Shown in pieces: positions 4,001 through 28,116 of a DNA stretch of 55,493 nt. This stretch comes from Bacteroidales bacterium (lineage in GTDB: Bacteria > Bacteroidota > Bacteroidia > Bacteroidales > Marinilabiliaceae). A program made the translations under genes and the position numbers. The stretch is from the NCBI GenBank assembly GCA_024401365.1, contig JAKSLE010000016.1:1-55493 (forward strand). Direction: 5' to 3'. The notes beneath the pieces are model-generated. The model saw only the letters and a program-made list of their open reading frames with translations. It searched no databases and was not told the origin of the DNA. Each line of letters opens with the position of its first letter. Position 1 is the first letter of the stretch.

Positions 4001-4849
4001 GCTCATACAAACGAACTTATCTATCAGGTAGTTCATAACTATCGTATGAAGTATAAGGACTTCGAGGCTGTAGAGAAGCGTAAGAAGTACAATGCTACTA
4101 TCGGTGACGAGCTTCCTTCAGGTATTATGCAGATTGCGAAGGTTTACATCGCTAAGAAGCGTAAGATCCGTGTAGGTGACAAGATGGCTGGTCGACATGG
4201 TAACAAGGGTATCGTTTCTCGTATCGTTCGTCTCGAGGATATGCCTTTCCTTGACGATGGTACTCCAGTAGATATCGTTCTTAACCCACTTGGTGTGCCT
4301 TCACGTATGAACCTTGGTCAGATCTATGAGACCGTTCTTGGTCACGCTGGTCGTATCCTCGGTAAGAAGTTTGCTACACCAGTATTTGACGGTGCTTCAC
4401 TCGAGCAGATTACAGAGTTGACTCGTAAGGCAGGTCTTCCAGACGTAGGTCGTACATACCTCTATGATGGTGGTACAGGCGAGCGTTTCCACCAGCCAGC
4501 TACAGTAGGTGTTGTATATATGCTTAAGTTGGGACACATGGTTGACGATAAGATGCACGCGCGTTCTATCGGCCCATACTCCCTCATTACTCAGCAGCCT
4601 CTCGGTGGTAAGGCTCAGTTCGGTGGTCAGCGTTTCGGAGAGATGGAGGTTTGGGCGCTCGAAGGTTTCGGCGCAGCAAACATTCTTCAAGAGATTTTGA
4701 CTGTTAAGTCCGACGACGTAATGGGTCGTGCTAAGGCTTACGAGGCTATCGTTAAGGGCGATTTGATGCCTACTCCAGGTATACCTGAGTCACTCAACGT
4801 GCTTTTGCATGAGATGCGTGGTTTGGGTCTAAGCGTCACACTTGAATAA
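1043..4849 (+). CDS. rpoB: DNA-directed RNA polymerase beta subunit
   Basis: The beta subunit forms half of the polymerase active-site cleft. The 1268-residue protein is full length for Bacteroidales and contains the family landmarks in order: the rifamycin-binding cluster (about 470-490), the stretch [12 protein letters not shown], the [13 protein letters not shown] segment, the [20 protein letters not shown] segment and the C-terminal [19 protein letters not shown] and SDD regions. One residue is unusual: where E. coli numbering 526 is His, this protein has Asn485 (AAT codon; context [12 protein letters not shown]), while the positions equivalent to 512, 513, 516 and 531 are the common Ser, Gln, Asp and Ser. 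It precedes rpoC by 21 bases. Confidence 0.99.
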
Positions 4850-4870
4850 GAATAATTATCTCTACTTTAT

Positions 4871-12055: not shown

Positions 12056-15000
12056 ACGTTTACATGGCTTCTGCTGGCTCGGGTAAGACATATACCCTGG
12101 CCAAGATATTCATTAACCTCATAATTGAAGATTCGACCAAGTACGGTCGCATCTTGGCAGTGACATTTACCAACAAGTCGACTGCCGAGATGAAGCAGCG
12201 TATTGTGGAAAATCTGCATATATTGGCGCACAAGAATCTCAATGAGAAAGAAGAGAAGGAATATCAGAAGCTATTAGACGCGCAAAATGAGTATAGGGCA
12301 GAGCGACAACTGTCGGTAAAGAGCGAAACTGAGATAAATGCGGCTTGTGACAATGCGCTGAAGTTGCTGCTCAATAACTATGGGCAGTTCAATATACTCA
12401 CGATAGACAAATTTGTACAGAAGATAATACGATCGTTTGCCTTCGAGAATGGGTTGAGTGCAGACTACAAAGTCAACCTAGAGACTGACCAGACCAAGAT
12501 GGAGATGGTTGACAGGCTGATGGAGAAGATGGAAGAAGATGCCGATTTGCAAGTTTGGCTCAGTGAATTGATGAACCAGAACATGGATGACGGTAAAGGG
12601 TGGGGAATAGAGAAACAATTGGTGCCTATAGCAGAGTCGTTACTCAACGGTCATGAATTGGAAGAGAGTAACGACAGTACAGATTCTGTACAAAAGAGAA
12701 AAGAGCTAAAGCAACTTAAGGAGAAGAATGACAAACTGCTGAAGGAGGCATACGAAGAACTTGCTACTGCGATAGAGAGATTGGCTGATTCTGCCAGAAA
12801 TTATTCTTCGGACAGCGACTACAAAGGGAAAAGTGCTAATGCAGTATTGAAACTTGTCCATGGGGGCAACAACTACACTGCCAAAGAAATTGAGAAGATA
12901 GTCAAAGGCACCTCAAAGGTTGCCCTAAAATCCTTTGAAGGATATTTAAAAAAGTCGTACGATGAAGCAGGTTCAATACTCACCTCGGGCGATGACAGTG
13001 AAATAGTGTCGCGCTATGTTGAGTTGAAGCGAGTATGGGCGGAGAAGTATCCATTGATACGCACGCTTAAGCTATTAGGGTCGAGGTTCTACTCAACAGG
13101 AATCATTACAGAGCTGAAGAGTATTCTTGCACAATTAGAGCGAGAGCAGCATATGCAGATGATCAGCGAGGCGAACGAATTGCTAAGGCAACTGATAGAC
13201 GGAGCCAGCATACCATTTATATATGAAAAGGCAGGAACAAAGTTTGACCATGTGATGATAGACGAGTTTCAGGATACGTCGAAGACACAATGGGAGAACT
13301 TCAAGCCGCTTATTGACAACTGTATTGACCAGGCAGGAGAGAATGGTGAGAATCAGTGTCTAGTAGTAGGAGATGTTAAGCAAGCCATATATCGCTGGAG
13401 AAACTCTGACTGGAATACACTTCATGGTATAGTTCAAGAAGGGGATACCCTTAGGCAAAAGATAAATTCGCTCAAGGAGAATTGGCGAAGCAGCAAGCAC
13501 GTCATAGATTTCAATAATATGTTATTCCCTGCGATAGCAGAGAAGAGTGTGGGATATGCTGCCAGTCTGCTTGATGAAAATGAGACGGTGAGAAAAAGCC
13601 TTTCAGCCATCAGTGAGATATACAAAGCGGGAAAGCAAGACGTTCCACCGGCAGATAAGAAAAAGGCTCGAGACGGATATGTCCAGTTGTCCTTACTAGA
13701 AACCGGCAAGGAAGAAGACGGATATCTATCTGCGGAAGAAGTAGAAGCGAATAGGAATGAAGAACTGGCAGGGATTATTGAAGAATTAGTTAAGGAGAGA
13801 GGATACGAATATGGGGACATCTGCATTATTGTCAGGAAGAACAAAGAGGCTACGCCTATAGTGAGAGACCTCAACAGACGAGGAATAAAGGTTGTTTCCA
13901 GTCAGGCACTATATATCTGCGAAGCACAGGCTGTGGAATTGGTGTTGGCTGTTCTCTCACTGGTTGTAGATAGCAATAATGATGCAGCATTGGCACAAGT
14001 TATGGCGTTCAATGATGTAGTAACGCCCGTTGACAAGTTGTACAGCAAATGGAATAAAGAAGAAAAGAATGCGGTACTAGCCAAGGTAGGCATATTGCGC
14101 GGGAAGGGATTGCTATCTATGGTACTAGAGGCCATAGATATGTTGCCTAATGATATAGTGCGTAGAGACTATGTCTTTTTGGAAGCATTTTTAGAGAAGG
14201 TAAAGAGTTATTCCGACAGTCAGATAGCATCGGTAGTCGGTTTTCTGAGGTATGTAGAAGAGCACAGATATTCATCGAATTTTGTGATACAATCTACAGA
14301 AGGGCAGAAAGATGCGGTAGGGATTACGACTGTACACAAGAGCAAAGGCTTGCAATTTCCTGTGGTATTGATACCAAGTGCCGACTGGGAGTTCTTCAGG
14401 AGAGGTGGAAATGAGATATGGTGTGACTTTGCGGATGATGATCCATATACAAATCTCAAGAAGATGGAATTGCCATTCTCGCAGTTGAAAGAGACGAAGT
14501 ATGAATCGCAATACTATACCGAGGCCATACAAACAGTAGTAGATAATATCAATCTGCTATATGTAGCGTGTACCAGAGCTGAAGACTGCCTATATGTGTG
14601 GTGTAAAAGATCGTCGGGAGAAAAGAAATCTTTTACGATGGTAGCGATGAGTGATTTAATAGAGAAAGGACTAAATAGTGAATTTAAGGGAGAGTATGGT
14701 GAGGTAGTAATTGACGTAGAAGAAAAGAGGAAGGTAACGTACAAGTATGGAGACTCAAGCAAGATACAGGCAGGCAAGAAGTCGGCACCAGTACAAGAAA
14801 CAGAGAGAAGTGAGAGCAAAGAAGAGTTGATAAAGCTTTACAGTGATATCTCAAAACGACTCTCATTGACCGTTGCAGACCCAGAAGACGAAGATGAGAG
14901 CAAGGGAGGAACTATCAGGCATAGCATAATGCAAGATGTTGTAAAGCGATCTGATATAGACAAGGCGATTAAGCGTGCAGAGTACAAAGGTGAGTTGACC

Positions 15001-15360
15001 TCAGACGAGGCGAGAGAAATGAGGCAGAAGATAGACACGGGATTTGTCGGTGAAAATGGTGCGCTTGTAGAAAGTTGGTTTGCTGAAGACAATAGAGTTA
15101 TCAATGAATCGACAGTAATATACAAGACTAAGGGGCACGAAGGTCAAGATGGGCTATTGATAGAGAGGCGACCAGACAGGGTGGTAGTTACGCGAGACGG
15201 TCGCACAATGGTAATAGACTATAAGTTTGGCAACAATAAAACGGCAGAGCATAAACGGCAGGTAAAAGGGTATATGTATTACCTCGGTTTGGCTGGGTAC
15301 AACAATGTAAAAGGGTATTTATGGTATGTAGAACTCGGAGAAATTGAGGAGGTAGTATAA
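12049..15360 (+). CDS. AddA/RecB-like UvrD-family helicase with C-terminal nuclease domain
   Basis: A superfamily 1A DNA helicase fused to a RecB-type nuclease, the kind that processes double-strand DNA ends for recombination. Helicase motifs visible in the 1103-residue protein: Walker A ASAGSGKT (7-14), motif Ia [13 protein letters not shown], Walker [10 protein letters not shown] (403-410), RWRNSDW, motif V region [13 protein letters not shown] (from 761) and ACTRAED. The C-terminal PD-(D/E)XK nuclease has [11 protein letters not shown] and the catalytic RRPDRVV...VIDYK (Asp1057, Lys1059). The ATG at 12049 overlaps the pepT stop, suggesting translational coupling. AddAB systems have a second subunit (AddB), commonly encoded alongside; no AddB-like gene is in the window. 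Family assignment is secure; the exact complex is inferred. Confidence 0.9.
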
Positions 15361-15431
15361 AAGGTTTTGATTGTTTGTCGATAAAAAGAGCCTATTTGTC
15401 GGTTTTACTTTCCAGTTACCTTATAATGCTG

Positions 15432-15439
15432 TAGTTTTG
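15432..15439 (+). promoter_or_regulatory. Probable -7 element for the outer-membrane barrel gene
   Basis: TAGTTTTG matches TAnnTTTG. The upstream -33 element is weak (TTTC at 15409-15412, 19 bases away). It would give a leader of about 90 bases before the ATG at 15533 and it argues against the longer in-frame reading that starts at 15371. Confidence 0.45.
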
Positions 15440-15532
15440 TTATACAAAAATGCAGTGGCTAACAGAAGTCAACTCCACAAATTACTACCAAAAACCAAAA
15501 CGAAGAGGAATAAAGAAAGTTGTATTAATAAA

Positions 15533-18085
15533 ATGCGCAGAAGAATATTTATGTTTATGCTCAGCCTGATGTGCGTAGCCATCAGTGCGTTTGCTGAAAT
15601 AGGTAATGTAAAAGGACAGTTGAAAGATGCAGATACTGGACAACCTATAGAATTTGCTACAGTAGCCATTACTGATGCTACTGGAAAAATGGTAACAGGA
15701 GGTGTTACTGATTTGGACGGAATGTTCAATATCTCAGGACTTAAAGTCGGAAAGTATACTGTCACATGCTCGTACATGGGATATACGCCAGCGACGCTGA
15801 CAATAGACATTACACGAGAGGGACAGACAGCCAATATTGGAGTTCGTAACCTTCAGCCTGAGACTAGTGAGCTAGAGGAGGTTAAGGTAACAGGTAAGGC
15901 TGCTCAGATGCGATTTGAACTTGACCGAAAGGTATTCGATGCAAGTCAGAGTATCGCGGCTGAAGGCGGATCGGCGTCGGACCTTTTAGCTACAGTGCCA
16001 AGTGTAGAGGTAGACAATGATGGTGGCGTATCGCTTCGTGGCAATTCATCTGTAACAATATGGATTAATGGTAAAGCATCTGGTTTGTCGGCAGAGAACC
16101 AGGCTGATATTCTACAATTGTTGCCTGCAGATAACATTAAGCAGATTGAGGTAATTACCAATCCTTCGGCTAAGTATAGTCCAGAAGGTACAGCTGGTAT
16201 TATCAATATCATTCTCAAGGATGAGCGTACTAGTGGTTATTTTGGTTCGTTGAAGGCAGGTGCCAATACCAATGGTGGATACCATTTTTCTGGAAATGTC
16301 AATGTGAATGTTTCCAAGTGGGAATTTGGACTTGATGCCAGTCGTCGTCATCGCAAGATGAAAGGAGGTGCTGAGATGCATCAGATAGTATTCACCCCAT
16401 CTTACTCTAGTGCCCTTGCCAAGGAGAGTACGCTTGACCAGACGACAGATAGTAAGAATGAGAATTCAAACTGGTTTGGTCGTTTCAAGACGACATTCCA
16501 TCCTACACCAAAGAACGATATAGGTATTGTTCTTTCCGGAATGAAAGGAGAAGGAGACAGTGAGGAAGATATAGAGTATATCAAAAAGGGATTTAAAAAC
16601 TCTGTTGACGTTGGCGAATTGCTATATACCTCAAACAGAAAGGCTGAATCTGACAATGAGAATCAGATGCATAATATGGAGTTCAATTATCGTCACACAT
16701 TTACAGACGATCATCTTTTGGACTTCTCGATTTCTCAATTTGGTTGGAACAGCGATGGTACATCAGACTATAAGCAGAAGTACAATGTGCCTGCGGGGTT
16801 GGATCCTATAGGCGATGTTCATGAGGTAGAGAAAAATGAGAATGACAATAAGGGTACTGTAGCGCAATTTGACTATCAGATTAAGGTATCTGATGCTGTC
16901 AAAATTGAAGCAGGTTATAAAGGAACGTTCAATAGAAATAAATCGTTATTGGACAGGGTAGATGGTAGTATAAACACCTATCAAGATTTCAAGTACAACC
17001 AAGATACTCATGCTGAGTATATTACGCTTGGTGGTATGATTGGTAACTTGAACATTCAAGGCGGTTTGAGAGCAGAGCAGTGGGAGTTTGAGACTATAGA
17101 CCGTTCGTCAGAGACAGAAATGAATAGCTCTATACCGAATTTGGGCGATGAGGTAAGGGCAAAAAAAGATTTCTCGAAGTTGTTCCCATCACTCTTCGTA
17201 TCTTATGCTTTGCCTAGTGGTAATGAATTGCAAATCAACTACACTCGTCGTCTTCGCAGACCATGGGGAGGACAGCTCAATCCTGTACGACGTGTGACAG
17301 ATGCTCACAATATCCGATTTGGTAATCCAGAGTTGACACCAGAGTACACAAATGCATTTGAACTCAACTACATTAAGATGTGGGAAAGCGGTCAGACTCT
17401 TTCGTTCTCGGCATACTATAGAGCCACAAGTGATGTAATGGACCGCATTACATTTACACAAGGCGATGTGCGATATGACACACAGGCGAATGTGAGTGAC
17501 AGAAAGTCGGCAGGTAGTGAACTTGTAGGTAAGAATAGAATATCTACATGGTTTGAGCTTACCACGACACTCAATATGTTCTATCAGAAGATTGAGGCTT
17601 ATCGATATGCGCCAGATAAGAATTGGTTAGCACTTATGACAGGTAGTACAGAGACAACTACTGTAGTTGAGGGTGATGAGCAGAATTCGTTTAACTGGAA
17701 TGTGCGAATGATAGGTAACTTCACTCTACCTGGAGACGTATCAATGCAAGCTACCGGAATGTACAGGGGTAAGTCTAAGGGCGTTCAAGGATATTCCAAG
17801 CCGATGGGAGGTCTTGACGTAGGACTTAAAAAATCATTCTTGAAAGATAAACTTGTACTTAACGTAAATGGGCGTAACGTCCTCAATAGTCGTAAGTTCC
17901 GTAATGTCTTTGAGAGCGAAACCATGTACCAAGATTCAAAAAGATGGAGAAATGGTTGTGTAATTAATTGCACAATTACGTGGAAATTTGGTAACTTGAG
18001 CCTCAATAAGAAGAAGGGTCCTGACGGCTCTGACGGAGAAGAAGACGGCGGCGGCGTATCGTATAGCGGTGGCGGCGACGATTAA
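15533..18085 (+). CDS. Outer-membrane beta-barrel protein, TonB-receptor-like, with CarboxypepD_reg domain
   Basis: An 850-residue outer-membrane protein. ATG 15533 gives a signal peptide (MRRRIFMFMLSLMCVAIS, then AFA). Next come a carboxypeptidase-regulatory-like domain (GQLKDADTGQPIEFATVAI, about 25-105), a plug-like domain (LLATVPSVEVDNDGGVSLRGN, IEVITNPSAKYSPEGTAGIINI) and a large barrel of aromatic-ended strands. This is the OMP_b-brl_3 type of TonB-dependent-receptor-like protein, common in Bacteroidales; substrate unknown and no SusD-like partner is adjacent. A longer in-frame reading from 15371 adds 54 codons that would bury the signal peptide, so I reject it. After the last strand (CTITWKFGNLSLNKKK) there is an unusual Gly/Asp-rich tail ending SGGGDD, which would be periplasmic or surface loop. 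Confidence 0.85.
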   Translation: MRRRIFMFMLSLMCVAISAFAEIGNVKGQLKDADTGQPIEFATVAITDATGKMVTGGVTDLDGMFNISGLKVGKYTVTCSYMGYTPATLTIDITREGQTANIGVRNLQPETSELEEVKVTGKAAQMRFELDRKVFDASQSIAAEGGSASDLLATVPSVEVDNDGGVSLRGNSSVTIWINGKASGLSAENQADILQLLPADNIKQIEVITNPSAKYSPEGTAGIINIILKDERTSGYFGSLKAGANTNGGYHFSGNVNVNVSKWEFGLDASRRHRKMKGGAEMHQIVFTPSYSSALAKESTLDQTTDSKNENSNWFGRFKTTFHPTPKNDIGIVLSGMKGEGDSEEDIEYIKKGFKNSVDVGELLYTSNRKAESDNENQMHNMEFNYRHTFTDDHLLDFSISQFGWNSDGTSDYKQKYNVPAGLDPIGDVHEVEKNENDNKGTVAQFDYQIKVSDAVKIEAGYKGTFNRNKSLLDRVDGSINTYQDFKYNQDTHAEYITLGGMIGNLNIQGGLRAEQWEFETIDRSSETEMNSSIPNLGDEVRAKKDFSKLFPSLFVSYALPSGNELQINYTRRLRRPWGGQLNPVRRVTDAHNIRFGNPELTPEYTNAFELNYIKMWESGQTLSFSAYYRATSDVMDRITFTQGDVRYDTQANVSDRKSAGSELVGKNRISTWFELTTTLNMFYQKIEAYRYAPDKNWLALMTGSTETTTVVEGDEQNSFNWNVRMIGNFTLPGDVSMQATGMYRGKSKGVQGYSKPMGGLDVGLKKSFLKDKLVLNVNGRNVLNSRKFRNVFESETMYQDSKRWRNGCVINCTITWKFGNLSLNKKKGPDGSDGEEDGGGVSYSGGGDD

Positions 18086-18102
18086 AAGAAGGATAACATT
18101 AA

Positions 18103-18480
18103 ATGTTTGATTTACCGAAAGACGAACGAATAAGTTCAGATAAGACTATTGACTCGCTATTTACAGACGGCGATAGTTGTTTCAAATATCCTCTACGTGT
18201 GGTATTTAAGCCACGCGTAGAGGCTTCTGCTTCTACATCACGCATGTTGATCTCGGTTCCCAAGAAGAGATTTAAGCATGCAGTAGACAGAAACCGAATA
18301 AAGAGGCAAGTGAGAGAGGCATACCGACAGAACAAGTCATTATTGACTATGAAGGAGTCGGGTGCCGATATTGCTTTTGTATATGTATCATCGGAGCACT
18401 ATCCCCAGACAAGGATAGAGGGAGCTGTAGTTAGTGCACTGAAAGAGATAGATAAGAAATTAAATAATACGCGCGAATGA
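18103..18480 (+). CDS. rnpA: Ribonuclease P protein component
   Basis: RnpA is the small basic protein that helps the RNase P RNA cleave the 5' leader from tRNA precursors. The 125-residue protein has the family signature: the RNR motif DRNRIKRQVREAYR in the middle, SVPKKRFKHAVDRN before it, and a C-terminal ALKEIDKKL helix. The N-terminus (SSDKTIDSLFTDG) matches the family's KSRKxIxxLFxxG pattern loosely. It starts 17 bases after the barrel gene and overlaps the aldo-keto reductase by 4 bases (ATGA). It has neither rpmH nor yidD as neighbour, unlike many bacteria. Confidence 0.93.
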   Translation: MFDLPKDERISSDKTIDSLFTDGDSCFKYPLRVVFKPRVEASASTSRMLISVPKKRFKHAVDRNRIKRQVREAYRQNKSLLTMKESGADIAFVYVSSEHYPQTRIEGAVVSALKEIDKKLNNTRE

Positions 18481-19427
18481 AGTACAATAAGACAGGCAAG
18501 TGGGGATTGAAGTTACCTGCTGTATCGCTTGGTATGTGGCACAACTTTGGGTCGGAAGATTCGTTTTCCAATGCGAATAAGATATTAGTACATGCTTTTG
18601 ACAAAGGCATTACACATTTTGACTTGGCGAACAATTATGGCCCTATATACGGAAGCGCCGAAGAGACGCTAGGTAAAGTATTGAAAGGTGATTTAAGGGG
18701 ACATAGAGACGAGCTAGTCATTTCGACTAAGGCAGGATACGATATGTGGGACGGTCCTTATGGGGATGGTGGTTCCAGGAAGTACCTCATTGCCAGTCTC
18801 AATCAAAGTCTCAAGAGAATGAGACTAGAGTATGTAGATATTTTTTATCATCATAGGCCTGATCCTGAAACACCTATTGAAGAGAGCATGATGGCGTTGG
18901 ACCAAATAGTTAGAAGTGGCAAGGCTTTGTATGTAGGTATATCAAACTATCATCCTCAAGAGGCTAGAGAAGCGATGAGGATATTGAAAGAACTTGGCAC
19001 TCCATGTCTGATACATCAAGCTAAGTATAATATGTTTGAGAGATGGGTTGAGACAGAAGGGTTACTTGATGTATTGGAAGAGTACGGTGCAGGGTTGATA
19101 GCGTTTTCGCCTTTAGCACAAGGATTATTGACAGACAGATACCTCAAAGGCATACCAGAAGGATCTCGAGTTACGCACAGTACGTTTTTGACGGCTGAGA
19201 GTGTAGCAGAGACGCTAGATGTAGTAAAGAAGTTGAACAATTTGGCGGAGAAATCGCACATGACGCTCAGTGAGTTGGCTTTAAAGTGGATATTGAGGGA
19301 CAAGAGAGTGACTTCGGTATTGGTAGGCGCATCGAGTGTAGAGCAGTTGGACAAGAATATCGGTATTGCAGAAGATTTGCATCTTGATGCAGAACTTATT
19401 GCTGATATTGACAAAATATTGAAGTAA
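18477..19427 (+). CDS. Aldo/keto reductase, YghZ/GprA-like
   Basis: An NADPH-dependent aldo/keto reductase of 316 residues, closely resembling E. coli YghZ (L-glyceraldehyde 3-phosphate reductase). Shared stretches include LPAVSLGMWHNFG, HFDLANNYGP, ISTKAGYDMW and GGSRKYLIASLNQSLKRM. The catalytic tetrad is readable as Asp49, Tyr54, Lys85 and His126. The nucleotide-binding end has SVLVGASSVEQL. It is about 30 residues shorter than E. coli YghZ, missing a few residues at both ends. The ATG overlaps the rnpA stop. Likely role is reductive detoxification of reactive aldehydes or ketones; the substrate is inferred from similarity. Confidence 0.87.
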   Translation: MKYNKTGKWGLKLPAVSLGMWHNFGSEDSFSNANKILVHAFDKGITHFDLANNYGPIYGSAEETLGKVLKGDLRGHRDELVISTKAGYDMWDGPYGDGGSRKYLIASLNQSLKRMRLEYVDIFYHHRPDPETPIEESMMALDQIVRSGKALYVGISNYHPQEAREAMRILKELGTPCLIHQAKYNMFERWVETEGLLDVLEEYGAGLIAFSPLAQGLLTDRYLKGIPEGSRVTHSTFLTAESVAETLDVVKKLNNLAEKSHMTLSELALKWILRDKRVTSVLVGASSVEQLDKNIGIAEDLHLDAELIADIDKILK

Positions 19428-19449
19428 GCTATTTATAAACCAGACGTTA

Positions 19450-20862
19450 ATGGATCTATTTAATACTCTATTTGAGAAATCGACAGGGCAAAAGGTGGTG
19501 TCAGTCACTTTGTTGCCTCAGTCGGGTTCGAACAGGAAGTATTACCGCATTGTAGGGGAGAACGGGCTTTCGCTCATAGGAGTGAACAGTACAAATACTA
19601 CAGAGAGCAAGACTTTTCTACAATTTACGCATTCCATGAGAGATGCAGGACTCAAGGTGCCTAAGATTTATGGCGAAGACCTTGAGAAAGACATATACAT
19701 ACAAGAAGACCTTGGTGATATGTCGCTATACCAGCACATACTAGATGTACGTGCAAAGGAGGGGTATTTTACCAGAGAGCTTGAAGAGTTGTACAGAACT
19801 ATCCTGGACGATCTGAACATTTTTCAGAAGAAGGCAGCTGGAGTAGTAGACTTTTCGTTATGCTACCCTAGGTCGGCTTTTGATGAGCGCTCCATGGACT
19901 GGGATTTGCAATACTTCAAGTATTATTTTCTCAGGCTTGCAAAGATTCCATTTAACGAAGAGTTGTTGGAGAAAGATTTTGATGTGCTGAAAGAATATCT
20001 TCTCAAGCAGCCATTGGATATTTTTCTCTATAGAGATTTCCAGAGCAGAAATATTATGCTCAGGGGAGAGACTAAAGAGCCATGGTATATAGACTATCAA
20101 GGAGGTCGTAGAGGAGCGAGGCATTATGATGTAGCGTCATTGCTCTTTGATGCCAAGGCGGATATTCCTGCTGATGTGAGAGATAGGCTTGCGCGTTACT
20201 TTTTTGCGGAAGAGGCGGAACAGCAGATGCCAGTATTTTATGCATTTGTGTTGATACGCATTATGCAGGCTATGGGAGCATACGGATACAGAGGCTTTTT
20301 TGAGAGGAAAGAACATTTCTTGCAGAGCATACCATATGCATTAGGTAATATTAAGTATCTGTTGTCCAATGACTTGTTGCCTGATATAGAGATTCCGCAC
20401 TTGAGGGGAGTTTTGGAGGCGTTGGAGAATTCGGCTGTTATCCAAGGCATTATCAATCCAAAGAAAGCAAAGTTGCATGTTTATGTTGCCTCGTTCTCGT
20501 ACAAGAGAATGATTCCACATGAGTTTAATGGTGGAGGTCATACTTTTGACTGTAGGGCGTTGCCAAATCCAGGCAGGTATGCAGAATATAAACAATCGAC
20601 CGGCAAGGATTCAGACGTCATAGCGTTTTTTGACAAATATCAAGACGAGATGCAGAAGTTTATATCTGCAGCTAAGACGATAGTGTCGATGTCTGTGGAG
20701 AATTATATGGAGAGAGGATTTGAGTCGCTAATGGTATCATTTGGATGTACTGGTGGTCAGCACAGAAGTGTTTATTGTGCGGAAGCTATGGGAAAGTGGC
20801 TCAAGGATACGTATGATATAGATGTGACAATAAAGCATATAGAGCAAGAACTCAAGAAATAG
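19450..20862 (+). CDS. AmgK-like amino-sugar kinase fused to a RapZ C-terminal domain
   Basis: Two domains in 470 residues. Residues about 1-335 are an aminoglycoside-phosphotransferase-fold kinase like AmgK, the anomeric MurNAc/GlcNAc kinase of murein salvage. The P-loop-like N-terminus has PQSGSNRKYYRI. The catalytic loop reads YRDFQSRNIM (base Asp196; the usual HxD His is Tyr) and the metal motif is IDYQGG (Asp215). Residues about 341-470 are a RapZ C-terminal domain: VYVASFSYKR, DCRALPNPGRY, GKD and SFGCTGGQHRSVYCAE. In E. coli that domain binds glucosamine-6-phosphate; the RapZ N-terminal ATPase is absent here. The next gene, 14 bases on, is MurU-like, which completes the salvage pair. 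Kinase substrate and sensing role are inferred. Confidence 0.85.
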   Translation: MDLFNTLFEKSTGQKVVSVTLLPQSGSNRKYYRIVGENGLSLIGVNSTNTTESKTFLQFTHSMRDAGLKVPKIYGEDLEKDIYIQEDLGDMSLYQHILDVRAKEGYFTRELEELYRTILDDLNIFQKKAAGVVDFSLCYPRSAFDERSMDWDLQYFKYYFLRLAKIPFNEELLEKDFDVLKEYLLKQPLDIFLYRDFQSRNIMLRGETKEPWYIDYQGGRRGARHYDVASLLFDAKADIPADVRDRLARYFFAEEAEQQMPVFYAFVLIRIMQAMGAYGYRGFFERKEHFLQSIPYALGNIKYLLSNDLLPDIEIPHLRGVLEALENSAVIQGIINPKKAKLHVYVASFSYKRMIPHEFNGGGHTFDCRALPNPGRYAEYKQSTGKDSDVIAFFDKYQDEMQKFISAAKTIVSMSVENYMERGFESLMVSFGCTGGQHRSVYCAEAMGKWLKDTYDIDVTIKHIEQELKK

Positions 20863-20876
20863 GGAGGTAGGAGAAT

Positions 20877-21629
20877 ATGATGCAAGCAATGATTTTTGCG
20901 GCTGGGTTAGGAACAAGGCTTAGACCGTTGACGGATAATAAACCCAAGGCGTTGGTAGAGATGGGAGGTAAGCCACTGATAGAGTATGCTATGGACCATT
21001 TCTACGCTGAAGGGGCTAGGAGGATAGTGGTTAATGTACATCATTTTGCCAATCAGGTTGTAGAGTATCTTCAGCGCAATGGGAAGAATATGTGGCCTGA
21101 AGCAGAAATACTTATCAGTGATGAAAGCGGCAGATTGCTAGATACTGGTGGCGGATTAGTAAAGGCATTGCCATTATTTGATAAAAATGAGCCTATTGTA
21201 GTAGGTAATGCAGATGTGATATGTGATGCACCTCTAGCAGAGTTGTTGGATATGCATAAGAGGATACACAATGACGCTACGCTACTGACTAGAGTGAGGG
21301 AGTCGACACGTCAGCTTCTTTTTGATGACATGCACTATTTGTGTGGGTGGATAAATACATCTAGTGGCAAGATAAAAGGCGATGTAAATATATCGGATGT
21401 GCCACAGTACAAGCAACAAGCATTCTGTGGTATCCATATAATAGAGCCATTGCTTGTAGAAGAGATGAAAGAAGAGATGGGAGAAGTATTTGGTATTATG
21501 GACGGGTATCTTAAGTTGTGCCAGTCGAAAGATATCATGAATATTGAGCTCTCGAAAGAGTACCACTGGTTTGATGTAGGTACTACGGAGAAGTTGCAGA
21601 AAGCGTACAACTTTTTTCACAAATCATGA
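20877..21629 (+). CDS. murU: MurU-like N-acetylmuramate-1-phosphate uridylyltransferase
   Basis: A nucleotidyltransferase of 250 residues that should join UTP to an alpha-1-phosphorylated amino sugar, giving UDP-MurNAc without the GlmU/MurA steps. The NTP-binding signature MIFAAGLGTRLRPLT, followed by KPKALVEMGGKPLIEYA, is at the N-terminus. GRLLDTGGGLVKALPLF, VVGNADVICD and, near the C-terminus, WFDVGTTEKL match MurU rather than sugar-pyrophosphorylases with a long C-terminal helix. Pairing with the AmgK-like kinase supports this reading. Two consecutive ATGs (20877, 20880) are possible starts. It overlaps the M23 peptidase gene by four bases (ATGA). Confidence 0.82.
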   Translation: MMQAMIFAAGLGTRLRPLTDNKPKALVEMGGKPLIEYAMDHFYAEGARRIVVNVHHFANQVVEYLQRNGKNMWPEAEILISDESGRLLDTGGGLVKALPLFDKNEPIVVGNADVICDAPLAELLDMHKRIHNDATLLTRVRESTRQLLFDDMHYLCGWINTSSGKIKGDVNISDVPQYKQQAFCGIHIIEPLLVEEMKEEMGEVFGIMDGYLKLCQSKDIMNIELSKEYHWFDVGTTEKLQKAYNFFHKS

Positions 21630-23263
21630 AGAGAGTATATTTAGTAAGTATACTTGCGCTGATATGTGGTATGGTACTGGCGCAAGACAATAAGCATGTT
21701 CATCCGATGGATATAGCCGTCAGGATAAGTGCTTCTTTTGCTGAACTCAGGGCAGATCATTTTCATTCCGGCATTGATTTATCTACGTCGGGAGCTATAA
21801 ATATACCAGTTAAGTCGACCAAGGAAGGATATGTAAGCAGGATTAAAATAGCGACTTACGGTTATGGCTATGCTTTGTATGTAGATCATCCCGATGGTAC
21901 TACCACGGTATATGGGCACTTAAACTCACTAGCAGACAAGATCGACAAAGTATTGTGTGATTATCAGTATGAGCACAAGACATTTAACTGTGACATTCCG
22001 TTAGGGAAAGAGGTGCTACCGGTCAAGAAAGGAGAAGTTATTGCATACAGTGGTAATACAGGAGGCTCTGGAGGACCGCACTTGCACTATGAGGTGCGCG
22101 AAACAAAAAGTGAGCATCCGCTCAATCCGTTGGCCTTCCTGCCAAAGATAAAAGATGATATGGCTCCAACGATAATGGGAGTTAAAGCATACTCAGTGTG
22201 GAATAGAGGAGACAGAACTATTTACGAAGGCGAGCAATATTTTACGAATCCTAATAATAAGGTAATTACAGCGCCAGCAGGCAAGGTAGTGTTGGGAATT
22301 CATTGTACAGATTATTTTCAACAAGGAGGCAGACCATGCGGAGTGGTAGAGATAAAATTGTTCAAGAATGACGAGTTGATATTTGACAGCAACATTACTG
22401 ATATTGATTTTGATCTTACCAGGAATATAAATGCTCATATTGACTATGCAGAATGGGTTAAGAACAAGCGCTTTATACAGAGGTCGTATGTATTGCCAGG
22501 GAATCAGCTCGGTTATTATGAAGGCAAAGGAGAGATTGTGCTCTCGTACCCTGATACATTGAATATGCGATATGAGGTATATGACTATGCTGGGCACAAG
22601 AGTGTTTTGCCATTTAAGTTGACATGCAGTGGAAGGAAGAAAGCTAGGTTGGCTAGCAGTCCCGACACATACCAATGGAATAAGACATACGCCATTGATA
22701 CTTTGGGGATATCTGTTGTGCTTCCGCAAGGTTCGCTGTATCAAGATGAGGTACTCAACATAAAGAAGGCAAAAGATATCTGGACTATTGGCACCAATGA
22801 TATTCCGTTGCAAAAGGCGGTGACGATAACATTACCAGTACCAGATAGCCTTGAGGTGACGGATGTTTGTATACTATCGAGGAACAGTAAGAATCAGGTA
22901 GTATATGTTGGCGGAGACGTAAAAGACGGAAAGATAACTGCGCAGACCAGAAGTCTAGGTAGATTTTATGTAGGAGTCGATTCGGAGGCACCTTCTGTCA
23001 GGAGTAGGAATTCAAAGAGCAATTTGCAAAGAAGCAACTTGATAATGATAGGTGTGAGTGATAATTTGAGTGGGATTGGGGAGTATGAGGTGTATATTGA
23101 TGGGGAGTTCCATCCATTTGAGTATGATTACAAGCAGAATATGCTTAAGGCGAGGTTGTCGCGTTTAAGGTTGGCAAAAGGTAGCCATAAACTGTTGGCA
23201 ATAGTCTCTGACTCAAGGGGGAATAGTAAGCGCTTTGAGTGGAGTTTTTCTCTAGTTGAATGA
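21626..23263 (+). CDS. Secreted M23 (LytM-type) metallopeptidase
   Basis: A 545-residue exported protein with a signal peptide (MKRVYLVSILALICGMVLAQ). The M23 domain occupies about residues 25-170 and all zinc/catalytic residues are readable: HxxxD at His47/Asp51, YGHL (His98) and HLH at His152/154, so it should be active on peptide cross-links of murein. The remaining 370 residues are beta-rich and end in Ig-like repeats (GVSDNLSGIGEYEVYIDGEF). Translation is coupled to murU through an ATGA overlap, which places a murein-cutting enzyme with the salvage kinase and transferase. Confidence 0.9.
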   Translation: MKRVYLVSILALICGMVLAQDNKHVHPMDIAVRISASFAELRADHFHSGIDLSTSGAINIPVKSTKEGYVSRIKIATYGYGYALYVDHPDGTTTVYGHLNSLADKIDKVLCDYQYEHKTFNCDIPLGKEVLPVKKGEVIAYSGNTGGSGGPHLHYEVRETKSEHPLNPLAFLPKIKDDMAPTIMGVKAYSVWNRGDRTIYEGEQYFTNPNNKVITAPAGKVVLGIHCTDYFQQGGRPCGVVEIKLFKNDELIFDSNITDIDFDLTRNINAHIDYAEWVKNKRFIQRSYVLPGNQLGYYEGKGEIVLSYPDTLNMRYEVYDYAGHKSVLPFKLTCSGRKKARLASSPDTYQWNKTYAIDTLGISVVLPQGSLYQDEVLNIKKAKDIWTIGTNDIPLQKAVTITLPVPDSLEVTDVCILSRNSKNQVVYVGGDVKDGKITAQTRSLGRFYVGVDSEAPSVRSRNSKSNLQRSNLIMIGVSDNLSGIGEYEVYIDGEFHPFEYDYKQNMLKARLSRLRLAKGSHKLLAIVSDSRGNSKRFEWSFSLVE

Positions 23264-23281
23264 TTTATAACGGAAAATAAG

Positions 23282-23289
23282 TACATTTG
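23282..23289 (+). promoter_or_regulatory. -7 element for apbE
   Basis: TACATTTG followed by C matches TAnnTTTG exactly and lies 23 bases before the apbE ATG. The -33 element is poor (GTTG at 23255-23258, 23 bases upstream). Confidence 0.55.
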
Positions 23290-23312
23290 CGGACGCATAG
23301 TATGTAGAAAAT

Positions 23313-24344
23313 ATGAACAAGTTTAGCTTGCTAACAATAGTGTCGGTACTGACATTGGTTTTAGTATGTGGATGTGGGGAGAAGAAAGTTCCATATATCC
23401 ATGATACAGGATTTGTATTTGGCACTGCGTACAGTTTGAAGTATCAATCGACTGAGAGTCAGCATAACAATGTTCGTGCTGCGTTGGATGAGTATGATAA
23501 ATCGCTGTCGACATATAATGACAGTTCCATTATTTCCAAGATAAACCGCAATGAGCCGCACACAGTAGACAGTTTCTTTGTTACAGTCTGGAATAAAGCC
23601 AAGGAGATGAATGAGTTGTCTGACGGGGCATTTGATGTGACAGTTAGGGGCTTGAGTTCGCATTGGAGATTTGCCAAGGAGTATACACTTGATACGATTT
23701 CGGTAGAGATTTATGATTCGTTGTTACATACAGCTGCTGATGTGCTCAAGTATACAGGAATGGATAAAGTGAGCCTTGATGGGGAATGTATAGTAAAAGA
23801 CGACCCACGTATTCAGATAGATATGTGTGCATTGGCAGAAGGGTATGGTATAGATGTGGCGGCCTCGGTATTGGAGAAGAATGGTATTGAGAACTATATG
23901 GTGGAGATCGGTGGCGAGTTGCACTTGAAAGGTCTCAGTCCTAATGGAACAAAGTGGAGAATAGCCATTGACAGTCCTACAGAAGATAACTCCATATTAG
24001 AGCGTGTATCACAGCATATTATAGAGATTACGGACTGTTCGATTTCGACATCCGGTTCGTATCGTCAGTATTATTATACAGAAGATGGTAAGCGTATTTC
24101 GCACACGATAAATCCCAAGACAGGTCGTCCTATTGAGCATAAATGCGTAAGTGTCAGTGTGATAGCTTCGAATACTATGACGACGGATGCTTTAGCGACG
24201 ATATTTATGGTTATTGGTCCAGACAAGGCCTTAGAGATGGCTAACAAGCTAGATGGTGTTGAGGCGCTGATAATCTATGAAGGAGAAGATGACCAGTTGG
24301 TAGAGATTATGACCGACGGGTTCAGAAAGGTAATAGTACAATAA
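23313..24344 (+). CDS. apbE: FAD:protein FMN transferase lipoprotein
   Basis: ApbE attaches FMN through a phosphoester to Thr/Ser of target proteins such as NqrB/NqrC and RnfG/D, on the outer face of the inner membrane. The 343-residue protein has a lipoprotein signal ending in VCGC (lipidated Cys21). Family features: DTGFVFGTAYSLKY, SLSTYNDSSIISKIN, QIDMCALAEGYGIDVAASVL, YMVEIGGELHLKG, and the C-terminal HTINPKTGRPIEH and SNTMTTDALATIFMVIG, where the magnesium-binding Asp lies. It heads a likely apbE-M28-rnhB transcript with spacings of 12 and 2 bases. Confidence 0.93.
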   Translation: MNKFSLLTIVSVLTLVLVCGCGEKKVPYIHDTGFVFGTAYSLKYQSTESQHNNVRAALDEYDKSLSTYNDSSIISKINRNEPHTVDSFFVTVWNKAKEMNELSDGAFDVTVRGLSSHWRFAKEYTLDTISVEIYDSLLHTAADVLKYTGMDKVSLDGECIVKDDPRIQIDMCALAEGYGIDVAASVLEKNGIENYMVEIGGELHLKGLSPNGTKWRIAIDSPTEDNSILERVSQHIIEITDCSISTSGSYRQYYYTEDGKRISHTINPKTGRPIEHKCVSVSVIASNTMTTDALATIFMVIGPDKALEMANKLDGVEALIIYEGEDDQLVEIMTDGFRKVIVQ

Positions 24345-24356
24345 AAAGTTGCATTA

Positions 24357-25361
24357 ATGAATAAGAGCACTCTATTTGCAGCACTTAGCGGCGTGATATT
24401 ATTTAGTCTGCTATCGTGCCAGAATACACAGCATAATAACTCGGGGGCATCTGCTACGGTTAAGGAAGAGGTGTTGAATGTAGATTTTTCGGCAGATTCG
24501 GCATATCAGTATACGGCAGAACAGGTAGCATTTGGTCCACGTGTGCCAGGTACAGAAGCCCATGGCAAGTGTTTGGATTATTTAGCAAGTACATTGGCGC
24601 GATTTGGCGCTGAGGTAGAGATTCAAGAAGGTGATGGCACTAATTATCTAGGAAACAGGCAGCATATCAAGAATGTTATAGGGCGTATTCAGCCGCAGAA
24701 AGCCAATAGAGTAATATTGTGTGCGCATTGGGATTCACGTCCATGGTCGGACAACGACAAAGATGCGAAGGTGCGAGACACTCCAGTAGACGGAGCAAAT
24801 GATGGTGCCAGCGGTGTTGGTGTATTGCTCGAGGTGGCGCGACAATTGCAGTTGAAGCAGAGCAAGATAGGAGTTGACATTATATTCTTTGATGTAGAAG
24901 ATATGGGAACACCCAGTCACAAGAACGACGTTAAGCACCTACAAGATACATGGTGTTTAGGCTCTCAGATGTGGGGTCAAAGTGACATGGGAAAGAGATC
25001 TCAAGCCAGGTTTGCCATCTTGTTGGATATGGTTGGTGCACCCAATGCTACATTTTATAGAGAATCGTTTTCCATGCAATGGGGGTCGAATATTGTAGAC
25101 AACGTATGGGGCAGGGCGCATAAGATGGGCTTTGGATCGTATTTTGTGAATTCTGATGGTGGGTATATTACAGACGACCACTATTATATACACAGGCATA
25201 CAAAGATTCCTGCTATAGATATCATACAATATGATTCTCAGAGCAATACATCATTTGGCTCGTACTGGCATACGCAGCAAGATACTATGGACAATGTAGA
25301 CAAGGCCACATTGAATGCTGTAGGAAGTGTAGTTCTTGGTGTTTTGTACAACGAGAAGTAG
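24357..25361 (+). CDS. M28-family lipoprotein, glutaminyl-peptide cyclotransferase type
   Basis: A 334-residue lipoprotein (signal ending LLSC, Cys21) that closely resembles the type II glutaminyl cyclase of Porphyromonas gingivalis: AFGPRVPGTEAH, LCAHWDSRPW, DGANDGASGVGVLLEVAR, FDVEDMG, LDMVGAPNATFYRE and SYWHTQQDTM. Zinc ligands are predicted as Asp149, Asp182 and His305, with Glu181 as base. Such enzymes convert N-terminal Gln of exported proteins to pyroglutamate after signal peptide removal, common in this phylum. It could instead be an M28 aminopeptidase, but the single-zinc pattern and overall match favour the cyclase. Confidence 0.85.
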   Translation: MNKSTLFAALSGVILFSLLSCQNTQHNNSGASATVKEEVLNVDFSADSAYQYTAEQVAFGPRVPGTEAHGKCLDYLASTLARFGAEVEIQEGDGTNYLGNRQHIKNVIGRIQPQKANRVILCAHWDSRPWSDNDKDAKVRDTPVDGANDGASGVGVLLEVARQLQLKQSKIGVDIIFFDVEDMGTPSHKNDVKHLQDTWCLGSQMWGQSDMGKRSQARFAILLDMVGAPNATFYRESFSMQWGSNIVDNVWGRAHKMGFGSYFVNSDGGYITDDHYYIHRHTKIPAIDIIQYDSQSNTSFGSYWHTQQDTMDNVDKATLNAVGSVVLGVLYNEK

Positions 25362-25363
25362 GT

Positions 25364-25945
25364 ATGCTTTTACCATATTTAAATAGTGGCATCATAGAAT
25401 GTGGTGTTGATGAGGCAGGTAGAGGATGTCTTGCTGGGCCTGTAGTGGCGGCGGCTGTCATTTTACCAGAAGATTTTGCCTCGGAATTTATCAATGACTC
25501 CAAGCAGTTGACGGCCAAGAAGCGAGATGCGTTACGCCCTGTGATAGAAGAAAATGCTCTTGCGTGGTCGGTCTGTATGATAGACAACACCATTATAGAC
25601 GAGAAGAATATACTACAAGCCACATACGATGCGATGCATGGGGCGATAAACGGGTTGAAGATAAGACCTGAGCACATTATAGTAGATGGCAACAGGTTTC
25701 GTCCATTTGACGGTATAGGTCACACTACCATAGTAAAAGGAGACGGAAAGTACCTCAGTATAGCTGCTGCTTCTATATTAGCTAAGACGCACAGGGATGA
25801 GTATATGATGGAGCAGCATAAGATTTATCCTGTGTATGCATGGGATAAAAATAAGGGGTACCCTACTGCAGCCCATTGTGAGGGCATTGCTGAGTATGGT
25901 ACCTCCCCTTTGCACAGACTGACCTTTCAAAAGGTCAAGTCGTAA
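25364..25945 (+). CDS. rnhB: Ribonuclease HII
   Basis: RNase HII removes ribonucleotides misincorporated in DNA. The 193-residue protein has the catalytic motif GVDEAGRG (Asp16, Glu17), followed by NDSKQLTAKKRD, IIVDGNRF (third acidic residue), and the KGDGKYLSIAAASILAKTHRDEYM region with the fourth acidic residue. Length is normal. ATG 25364 lies two bases after the preceding stop. It faces pyrE tail to tail with only 6 bases between stop codons and no visible terminator. Confidence 0.96.
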   Translation: MLLPYLNSGIIECGVDEAGRGCLAGPVVAAAVILPEDFASEFINDSKQLTAKKRDALRPVIEENALAWSVCMIDNTIIDEKNILQATYDAMHGAINGLKIRPEHIIVDGNRFRPFDGIGHTTIVKGDGKYLSIAAASILAKTHRDEYMMEQHKIYPVYAWDKNKGYPTAAHCEGIAEYGTSPLHRLTFQKVKS

Positions 25946-25951
25946 TATTAT

Positions 25952-26584
25952 TTAGCAGCCCCAAGTATCTGGAGACTTGCGCCACTCCTTGAGAGTGTCG
26001 ATATCGGCTGATGTTACGTATCCTGACTCAACAGCAGCCTGGATCATATCGTTGTAGTTGCTGAGAGTTGTAAGTTCAACCTTAGCATCTGCGAAAGCGT
26101 CGACAGCCTTCTGGAAGCCGTATGTAAAGATAGCGAGCATGCCAACTACCTCGGCGCCAGCGTTGCGGAGAGCCTCGACAGCCTTGAGAGAGCTGCCACC
26201 TGTAGAGATGAGGTCCTCGATAACCAATACCTTCTGGCCTGCCTTAAGATCGCCCTCGATAAGGTTCTCCATGCCGTGGTTCTTAGGAGCAGAACGAACG
26301 TAGATAAAAGGTTTGTTGAGGAGGTCGGCTACAAGAGCGCCCTGAGCGATAGCGCCAGTTGCCACGCCAGCCACTACGTCGAAATCGGCATATTTCTCCT
26401 TAGCAATCTTAGCGAAAGACTCTTTGATATATGTACGAGCAGCAGAGTAAGACAAAGCCTTACGGTTGTCGCAGTATATAGGTGATTTCCATCCAGAAGC
26501 CCAAGTGAAAGGGTTGGTAGGTTGAAGGCGGATAGCCTTAATGTCGAGCAATTGCTTTGCTACTGTTAGAGATATCTCGTTCAT
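25952..26584 (-). CDS. pyrE: Orotate phosphoribosyltransferase
   Basis: PyrE transfers orotate onto PRPP to make OMP in pyrimidine synthesis. The 210-residue protein from ATG at 26584 begins MNEISLTVAKQLLDIKAIRL, as in relatives. A longer in-frame reading to 26656 would run through the promoter and is rejected. Motifs: PFTWASGWKSPIYCDNR, GVATGAIAQGALVAD, FIYVRSAPKNHGMENLIEG and the PRPP-binding loop VLVIEDLISTGGSS. It is a single gene with its own promoter at 26603-26633. Confidence 0.95.
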   Translation of the reverse strand: MNEISLTVAKQLLDIKAIRLQPTNPFTWASGWKSPIYCDNRKALSYSAARTYIKESFAKIAKEKYADFDVVAGVATGAIAQGALVADLLNKPFIYVRSAPKNHGMENLIEGDLKAGQKVLVIEDLISTGGSSLKAVEALRNAGAEVVGMLAIFTYGFQKAVDAFADAKVELTTLSNYNDMIQAAVESGYVTSADIDTLKEWRKSPDTWGC

Positions 26585-26602
26585 GATGAAATTATTTTTG
26601 TG

Positions 26603-26633
26603 CAAAATTAAAAAAGAGGTGTCATAGTTGAAA
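26603..26633 (-). promoter_or_regulatory. Promoter for pyrE
   Basis: Read on the minus strand: TTTC, 19 bases, TAATTTTG, then C. The -7 box fits TAnnTTTG exactly. It gives a leader of about 10-15 bases to the ATG at 26584. Confidence 0.65.
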
Positions 26634-26676
26634 ATAAATAACGAACTTTGACACATAAACTTTAATACAAAAGGCG

Positions 26677-28116
26677 ATGAAAAAGTACTCTATCCTGATA
26701 TTGGCTTTGATTTCAAGTATAATATTTGTGTCTTGTGATGATGACACTAATGCGCAAAAGCCAAAACCAGGTCCTAGTGGGGCCAGCAAGACGATAAAGG
26801 CCAACGAGTTTGTATTCTCCATTATGGATACATACTATCTGTACAATGAGGGTATATCGGATGATAAAGGATATCCTATTATAGATTATACTAAGGAGAC
26901 AGATACTGAGGAGTATTTTGAGAAGCTAAAAGATGAGAGAGATATTTTCTCGTTCATTACAGATGATGCTGAGGAGTACAATAAAGAAGAGAGCGGTATA
27001 ATGACAGATATGGGATGGAAGGTAACGCTCATGTACGGAGACAGTGAGAAGAAGAGTGTTATGGCAGCTGTCAACTACGTTTATGAGGGCACTCCTGCAT
27101 ATGAAGCCGGTGTTAGACGAGGAGACTATGTGGTAAAAATAAATGGGCAGCAGATGACACCTTCGAACTATAGGGATGTTTGGAACAAGGATGGACAGTA
27201 CACCCTTTATAGATTTGACGCAGAAGAGAAGAGAGAGATAATTACTTGCGACTTGAAATCGCGAGAGATTAACACGTCGCCTATAGCAGAAGCTCATATA
27301 TTCACACTTGATGATGGAATGAAAGTAGGCTATCTTCTCTACATGGACTTCAAGGATAAATTTAATGAAGAGCTGTTGGACGTATTTGAGACATTCAACA
27401 CGGAAGGAGTCAGCAAGTTGATACTTGACCTTCGATACAATCCTGGTGGAGCGATGCTTGCATGTTCGCAATTGACATCGCTTATTGCGCCTATAGATGT
27501 AGTAAAGTCAAAGAAGCAGATTATACATTATCAGTATAATGATAATCTTCAAAAAGAGTTGGGAGTAGACGAGTCGACATTTGTTAATAATTCAGAGGTA
27601 CTTGGAGCCAATTTGAATCTCAAGGACATTGTGATAATTCAAGGTAGTGGTACATACTCGGCATCGGAAGCTACGATTATAGGTCTTAAGCCATATATGA
27701 ACGTTTATACTATTGGTTCGACTTCTGGAGGAAAGAACACGGCTATGTTTATACTTACGCCAGACATGTTTGAGAACAGGTTGGGAGAGCCAATATTTGA
27801 CAAGAGCATCAATAACTGGTTGATAGCTCCACTTGTTGCGTTCTATTACAACAGTGAGAACTATACATTTGACACGACAGACGGAGATGGTATGGATCCA
27901 GATTACGCGTACAATGAATTTGATGACCTATACCGTGCTCCACTTGGGAAGCCAGAAGAGAAATTGACCTCGTTGGCACTCGAGTACATAAAGAACGGGC
28001 AGATTGCGGCGAACAAGTCGGCACGCATTGCACCATTTGGCAAAGTTATTCCAGCAGAAAAGTATTGTAAGATTGAGCCATTGAAGGCAGAGCCTAGAGT
28101 TGACCTTTTCAAGTAA
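26677..28116 (+). CDS. S41-family (C-terminal processing type) protease lipoprotein
   Basis: A 479-residue lipoprotein (signal ending FVSC, Cys20) with DDD right after the Cys, resembling the surface-export signal of Bacteroidota lipoproteins. A PDZ-like stretch (YEGTPAYEAGVRRGDYVVKINGQ) sits at about 130-155. The S41 domain carries LILDLRYNPGG and SGTYSASEAT with the nucleophile Ser328, then TIGSTSGGKN with the likely Lys. It is predicted to cut periplasmic or surface substrates; the target is unknown. The trxB gene follows within about 18 bases. Confidence 0.87.
   Translation: MKKYSILILALISSIIFVSCDDDTNAQKPKPGPSGASKTIKANEFVFSIMDTYYLYNEGISDDKGYPIIDYTKETDTEEYFEKLKDERDIFSFITDDAEEYNKEESGIMTDMGWKVTLMYGDSEKKSVMAAVNYVYEGTPAYEAGVRRGDYVVKINGQQMTPSNYRDVWNKDGQYTLYRFDAEEKREIITCDLKSREINTSPIAEAHIFTLDDGMKVGYLLYMDFKDKFNEELLDVFETFNTEGVSKLILDLRYNPGGAMLACSQLTSLIAPIDVVKSKKQIIHYQYNDNLQKELGVDESTFVNNSEVLGANLNLKDIVIIQGSGTYSASEATIIGLKPYMNVYTIGSTSGGKNTAMFILTPDMFENRLGEPIFDKSINNWLIAPLVAFYYNSENYTFDTTDGDGMDPDYAYNEFDDLYRAPLGKPEEKLTSLALEYIKNGQIAANKSARIAPFGKVIPAEKYCKIEPLKAEPRVDLFK

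Follow-up and report, generated by a model that had tools for sequence, protein, structure and literature searches.

An AmgK-like sugar kinase associated with a RapZ-derived C-terminal module in Bacteroidota, commonly followed by a MurU-like gene

In Pseudomonas, the AmgK/MurU route of cell-wall recycling is reported to employ a separate phosphatase of the HAD type, MupP, and the MurU route underlies intrinsic fosfomycin resistance in the bacteria that use it (PMC5371407). The route is also used by Caulobacter (PMC13046382), and within Bacteroidia it is known from Tannerella forsythia (PMC13046382, PMC7670621), whose AmgK/MurU pair, when expressed in E. coli, allows labelling by MurNAc probes (PMC13041923). 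RapZ has been described in a different setting: in E. coli its C-terminal domain by itself binds glucosamine-6-phosphate (GlcN6P), and the GlmY/GlmZ system with RNA-binding RapZ is described as confined to Enterobacteriaceae (PMC7073468). The B. subtilis relative YvcJ binds UDP-GlcNAc, and a K22A substitution prevents this binding (PMC7525490); by its position K22A lies in the N-terminal half of YvcJ, so this result is no evidence that the C-terminal domain binds a ligand.

The window analyzed here (the whole stretch of 55,493 nucleotides from a Bacteroidales contig) carries both protein families in a single forward-strand open reading frame of 470 codons. The ORF list, Pfam and NCBIfam identified an AmgK-like sugar kinase followed by a RapZ C-terminal domain, which confirms that the fusion noticed in a sequence-only reading of this DNA is real. 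The locus comprises the following features:

18103-18480, forward strand: rnpA (Pfam Ribonuclease_P)
18477-19427, forward strand: aldo/keto reductase
19450-20862, forward strand: AmgK-like kinase / RapZ_C fusion, whole gene, 470 aa
19450-20439, forward strand: APH-fold kinase half, residues about 1-330, best Foldseek match 3csv
20470-20844, forward strand: RapZ_C module, residues 341-465
20530-20577, forward strand: subclass signature, residues 361-376 (GGG insertion, FDCR, NPGR)
20743-20772, forward strand: phosphate-binding loop GCTGGQHRSV, residues 432-441 (C433-x5-R439-S440)
20877-21629, forward strand: MurU-like sugar-1-phosphate nucleotidyltransferase, the next gene
21626-23263, forward strand: M23-family peptidase (cell-wall hydrolase type)

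The order rnpA, aldo/keto reductase, fusion, murU-like gene and M23 peptidase on one strand, with gaps of -4, 22, 14 and -4 bases, makes a shared transcript of these genes likely; the MurU-like gene follows the fusion after 14 bases, and its end shares 4 bases with the beginning of the M23 gene. Promoter-like sites show no excess (10 versus 14.0 in shuffled sequence), while terminator-like sites number 5 versus 2.7. Elsewhere in the window, a CotH-type kinase gene (36744-38405, Pfam CotH E 3.2e-41) has a neighbor at 35009-36661 that encodes a phosphoribulokinase/uridine kinase domain.

The first half of the fusion is matched by Pfam APH at residues 20-252 (E 1.4e-9, over the cut-off), and its best Foldseek match, 3csv, has an E-value of 1.8e-13. 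It carries the catalytic-type motifs RDFQSRN (195-201) and IDYQGG (214-219), in which the catalytic Asp and metal-binding residues D196, N201 and D215 are kept in 73 of 73 aligned sequences (A3). No NCBIfam kinase family other than AmgK matches this half, in line with the resemblance to AmgK that had been proposed. Because the scores of 45.9 bits (cut-off 550) and 40 bits (cut-off 500) lie below the equivalog level, the protein is named AmgK-like here, not AmgK. The same holds for its neighbor, taken as MurU in the sequence-only reading: MurU is its best NCBIfam family (E 5.1e-36), at 124.2 bits against a cut-off of 370 and 122.9 against 250, both below the threshold. The fusion thus resembles AmgK, the MurNAc/GlcNAc anomeric kinase of the MurU route, in being an APH-type kinase often followed by a MurU-like gene, and differs from it by the additional RapZ_C half and by scores far under the AmgK cut-offs.

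A MurU-like gene lies downstream of the fusion in the same orientation, no more than 1.5 kb away, at 42 of 57 loci in one set and at 46 of 76 in a second, which comprises those of the best 80 scan loci with at least 900 bases downstream; the pairing, for which such a count had been proposed, extends well beyond a one-off. At the remaining 15 of 57 and 30 of 76 loci, such a gene is missing within this distance, and the association is accordingly common, not universal. Together with the low AmgK and MurU scores, these loci would fit a kinase that is not an AmgK and acts on another sugar, with the RapZ_C module serving that pathway. We regard this as improbable, since no other NCBIfam kinase family matches the first half, MurU is the best family for the next gene, and the kinase/MurU-like gene order recurs in Acidobacteriota and Elusimicrobiota MAGs. 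By analogy with the known families, an AmgK-type substrate and a partnership with the MurU-like enzyme would be expected.

The second half of the protein is a RapZ_C domain both by Pfam (PF22740, residues 343-465, E 4.1e-30, over the gathering score) and by structure. The NCBIfam RapZ model covers the fusion only at model positions 148-275 of 278 (95.7 bits, cut-off 244); the N-terminal Walker-motif ATPase half of RapZ is absent, as had been noted from the letters alone, together with the hallmark GCTGGQHRSV. In the predicted model this loop sits between strand 426-433 and helix 439-454. Across A3, C433, T434, G435, G436, H438 and S440 are invariant (73/73) and R439 is kept in 72 of 73; D367, R369, N373, P374, G375 and H463 are likewise invariant, and position 376 holds Arg or Lys in all 73 sequences of A3 and in 28 of 29 in A1. 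A3 leaves out L089, L108, L120 and L139 (frame over 519 aa), L095, L119 and L136 (no ORF assigned) and the split locus L114. By pairwise comparison the module is conserved as well as the kinase, with a mean identity of 0.558 versus 0.523 and with 20 of 125 versus 35 of 321 invariant columns. In a Saprospiraceae copy (L075, 35-1480), which was left out of A4, the loop Arg is replaced by His (C-x5-H), which may reflect a modified pocket or a fault in the assembly.

The pocket was compared between canonical RapZ (10 of 40 listed records, from alpha- and gammaproteobacteria, Bacillota and an actinomycete) and 13 AmgK-linked modules (the window, four named fusions, six split-adjacent and two unlinked modules). 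C247, T248, G249, G250, H252, R253, S254, D182, R184 and H276 (E. coli numbering) are common to both sets, no exception being seen, and the E. coli phosphate loop C247, T248, G249, H252 and R253 is essentially invariant in the AmgK-linked modules. The sets differ at three positions: H190 is His in eight and Tyr in two canonical proteins versus Gly in all 13 AmgK-linked ones (also 73/73 in A3 and 29/29 in A1), W191 is Trp or Tyr in ten versus Arg or Lys in 13, and R238 is Lys or Arg in ten versus Phe or Tyr in 13. A Gly-rich insertion near the H190 position occurs in the AmgK-linked copies and not in canonical RapZ; in the window copy it is two residues shorter than in the others, and residue 358 is Glu, not Asp. 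The same signature is shared by fused, free and unlinked modules, so it is tied to the kinase and not to the fusion itself. Judged by these residues and the insertion, the AmgK-linked modules form a distinct subclass; they differ from RapZ and YvcJ also in lacking the ATPase half and a conserved basic tail. Of the five E. coli pocket residues H190, T248, G249, H252 and R253, four are kept in the fusion family. The expectation of a conserved GlcN6P pocket therefore holds for the phosphate loop and fails at H190, where the change to Gly and the Gly-rich insertion mean that GlcN6P cannot be assumed to be the ligand.

The module might instead bind RNA, as E. coli RapZ does, a function that the sequence-only reading had named as one option. 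The equivalents of K170 (10/13) and R184 (13/13) are retained, but R238 is Phe or Tyr in 13 of 13 AmgK-linked modules, the basic tail residues K270, K281, R282 and K283 are not conserved, the RNA-binding region is described as limited to Enterobacteriaceae (PMC7073468), and no Rfam family matches positions 15000-27000 at E-values up to 1. As the RNA-contact residues are not kept, RNA binding appears unlikely, and among the alternatives weighed here it is the least probable.

To assess the distribution of the fusion, counts were made on an even draw of 296 Bacteroidota genomes; a separate search for relatives gave a match in 40 of 41 genomes. The fusion query matches 100 of the 296 genomes, and RapZ_C is over its cut-off in 36, all of which lie within these 100 and also carry the kinase. 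By open frame and position, the module is fused to the kinase in 27 of them, encoded by a separate gene next to it in seven (G052, G071, G135, G250, G305, G317, G321) and unlinked in two (G220, G311), where it adjoins an endonuclease gene and an MFS gene. Attachment of the module to the kinase, as noted in the window, thus holds for most carriers, though not for the nine in which the two are separate proteins. Of the other 64 matching genomes, 63 belong to one family (f34) of weak stand-alone kinases lacking RapZ_C, and one (G049) carries a strong kinase and likewise lacks RapZ_C. The f34 kinases lie beside a MurU-like gene in five of six loci checked; at L159, L161, L162, L164 and L165 the stand-alone AmgK-like kinases neighbor longer MurU-like proteins of 309-344 aa. 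A kinase with no attached module was also seen in the related genome G026 (L150, 6722-7711, reverse strand).

A second scan retained the best 80 of at least 587 relatives among at least 595 pattern matches. These 80 loci, mostly from MAGs, span Bacteroidota, Ignavibacteriota, Calditrichota, Acidobacteriota, Elusimicrobiota and Fidelibacterota. Two PLSDB-listed plasmid records, from Bacteroides finegoldii (WP_237923178.1) and Parabacteroides distasonis (WP_005858754.1), encode fusions of 476 aa, followed by a nucleotidyltransferase gene matching the MurU-like protein of the window. Both fusions (L222 and L223, each at 3993-5423) are annotated as ‘RNase adapter RapZ’, despite the missing ATPase half and the sugar kinase present. 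The gene pair is found in Phocaeicola massiliensis too, and Prevotella sp. oral taxon 299 has the fusion with no MurU match within 5 kb.

In the split loci L043, L060, L146, L147, L148 and L151, the kinase gene comes first, followed by a gene for a RapZ_C protein of 133-139 aa and then by the murU-like gene. A quick tree of the kinase halves, in which long branches call for caution and the unlinked rows sit on such branches, was built after dropping L088, L123, L133 and L140. Five split rows of family f21 nest among fused kinases within a 13-row clade (support 99), the split kinase of G071 groups with a fused neighbor (support 99), and the split Calditrichaceae locus L114 groups with fused rows (support 92). 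As split rows fall inside fused clades, at least one lineage, and probably more than one, has retained the module as a free protein following fission. In G071 (L043, 1480-2901) the break between kinase and RapZ_C consists of a stop and a new start within six bases in the same frame, which may be a fission or a sequencing error. The survival of the module as a free protein weakens readings that depend on attachment; a subunit or an enzyme fits.

A structural role was also weighed, in which the module mainly dimerizes the kinase or holds substrate or product for MurU, its loop binding and neither regulating nor catalyzing. F181A and D182A are reported to abolish dimers of the E. coli C-terminal domain (PMC5737377), and all 13 AmgK-linked modules retain both residues. 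Cys, His, Arg and Ser are nevertheless conserved more strictly than dimer contacts need, and in two genomes the module lies far from the kinase gene. We consider this role doubtful, slightly less so than a kinase for another sugar.

Directly established are the composition of the protein, the fixed association of module and kinase among the genomes sampled, the invariance of the phosphate loop and the remodeling of the pocket. From there, our tentative first choice, at somewhat less than an even chance, is an anomeric kinase of the MurU route that is tuned by an amino-sugar phosphate held in its RapZ-derived pocket. The kinase would convert MurNAc, and possibly GlcNAc, to the 1-phosphate, which would be passed to the MurU-like enzyme encoded next door. 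The C-terminal pocket would bind the phosphate of an amino-sugar metabolite, and this binding would adjust the kinase so that salvage tracks precursor supply. We infer both the nature of the ligand and the effect of its binding on activity; allostery on the kinase would be plausible, and the putative ligand is possibly MurNAc-6P, GlcNAc-6P or the kinase’s own product rather than GlcN6P. No neighbor names the ligand: apart from the fusion, present at 85 of 90 loci, and the MurU cluster, present at 48, every neighbor cluster is limited to seven of 90 loci or fewer, and a family scan of 72 chosen neighbor proteins gave no ligand lead among the matches listed (25 of 113 families).

Several observations argue against this sensor. 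The loop Cys is invariant, yet a plain phosphate sensor should not need a Cys; none of the AmgK-linked copies compared retains the pocket residue H190 of E. coli; the module as a gene of its own in some lineages speaks against a need for covalent coupling; and the AmgK and MurU scores under the curated cut-offs count against it as well. A C-x5-R-[ST] loop between a strand and a helix is the signature of thiol (cysteine-dependent) phosphatases, tyrosine phosphatases included, and the C-x5-R-S of the module lies between strand and helix in just this manner in the predicted model. The module could thus be a cysteine-dependent sugar-phosphate phosphatase, the fusion turning MurNAc-6P into MurNAc (the MupP step) and then into MurNAc-1P for MurU. 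We judge this a serious alternative, though an unlikely one, and rank it after the sensor; its extended form, in which RapZ_C is catalytic, the fusion is a bifunctional MurNAc-6P phosphatase and MurNAc 1-kinase, and classical RapZ descended from such enzymes and kept the pocket for sensing, is a little less probable again.

In hhalign the C-x5-R-S of the module falls in the same register as in LMW phosphatases, but with a probability of only 1.1%, and no protein of the tyrosine-phosphatase type is among the best 50 matches listed of either Foldseek or VIA-align. The Pfam RapZ_C profile weakly matches a DSP-like protein of the window’s own genome (profile 68-111, E 0.004, below the cut-off) in a region containing that protein’s own C-x5-R-S; its DSPc match (E 0.0017, below the cut-off) is about as weak. 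This protein (164 aa; L002 1357-1848, reverse strand; contig C12:34031-34522) has no match in 60 other genomes searched. No general acid for phosphatase catalysis was identified in the module, and the parts of the literature covered by the search hold no mention of a phosphatase activity of RapZ. In favor of catalysis, C247S inactivates E. coli RapZ, GlcN6P looked chemically transformed in crystals of the C-terminal domain, and the authors propose a catalytic role for the thiol (PMC9841335). The tested pocket variants of E. coli RapZ, however, also failed to bind GlmZ (PMC9841335), so lost RNA binding explains the C247S phenotype as well.

Genomic context speaks on both sides. In split loci the free RapZ_C protein lies between the kinase and the MurU-like gene, as would suit an enzyme. 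AnmK, the maker of MurNAc-6P, occurs without MurQ in 12 of the 36 RapZ_C genomes; 13 have both, three MurQ only and eight neither. AnmK is thus missing from 11 of the 36 and from 15 of 15 tested genomes of the window’s genus, and MurQ, counted at E below 1e-80, is present in 16 (14 over the curated cut-off); it is absent from the five genomes of the genus tested. Whatever the combination of AnmK and MurQ, the module is retained, a pattern that fits a sensor of a general precursor more readily than an enzyme dedicated to MurNAc-6P. AnmK was rejected as a predictor of the module, being found in 25 of 36 RapZ_C genomes versus 206 of 296 overall and in none of 15 in the window’s genus. None of the 206 genomes with AnmK carries an f34 kinase.

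A catalytic module would supply the step of the MurNAc-6P phosphatase MupP. MupP is described as an HAD enzyme (PMC5371407), and neither Pfam nor the structure searches relate the module to HAD; being RapZ_C by both, it might stand in for MupP but is not itself a MupP. Among the seven HAD_2 proteins of the window’s own genome, the MupP model scores 34.6 bits at best, its cut-off being 359, which would leave the step to be filled. The model is, however, over its cut-off in none of the 296 genomes and equally in none of 14 controls, Caulobacter included, so that an absence of MupP is not implied. A complementarity with MupP by way of f34, the family lacking RapZ_C and holding nearly all the best MupP-model matches, was dropped because the single f34 protein tested scores higher as a phosphoglycolate phosphatase (135.9 bits) than as MupP (114.1 bits).

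Parabacteroides distasonis, a carrier of the fusion, belongs to Tannerellaceae, the same family as T. forsythia, whose AmgK/MurU pair represents a Bacteroidales MurU route, as does the candidate route of the window. T. forsythia is reported to lack glmS, glmU, murA and murB (PMC5790795), so a GlcN6P sensor there would track breakdown, not synthesis.

The open-licence PMC papers searched include none that mentions RapZ and AmgK together, in agreement with the earlier statement that no description of such control was known. Neither RapZ nor AmgK is among the matches listed in a search combining both with tyrosine phosphatases or CX5R, and in the portions of open-licence literature retrieved, RapZ with Bacteroides concerns E. 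coli phage resistance only. Within this literature the fusion, the pocket subclass and the fission seem undescribed; both component families are known, and what seems new is their conserved arrangement.

Whichever reading applies, the name ‘RNase adapter RapZ’ on the two public examples misleads pathway annotation, and the pairing makes it easy to test whether wall recycling is linked to metabolite sensing or whether the module adds another enzyme activity. If the module is catalytic, it would supply a step of muramic-acid recycling and explain both the original role of RapZ and the essential thiol of the E. coli protein. If it regulates the kinase, it would constitute a direct, protein-level switch between wall recycling and new synthesis outside Enterobacteriaceae.
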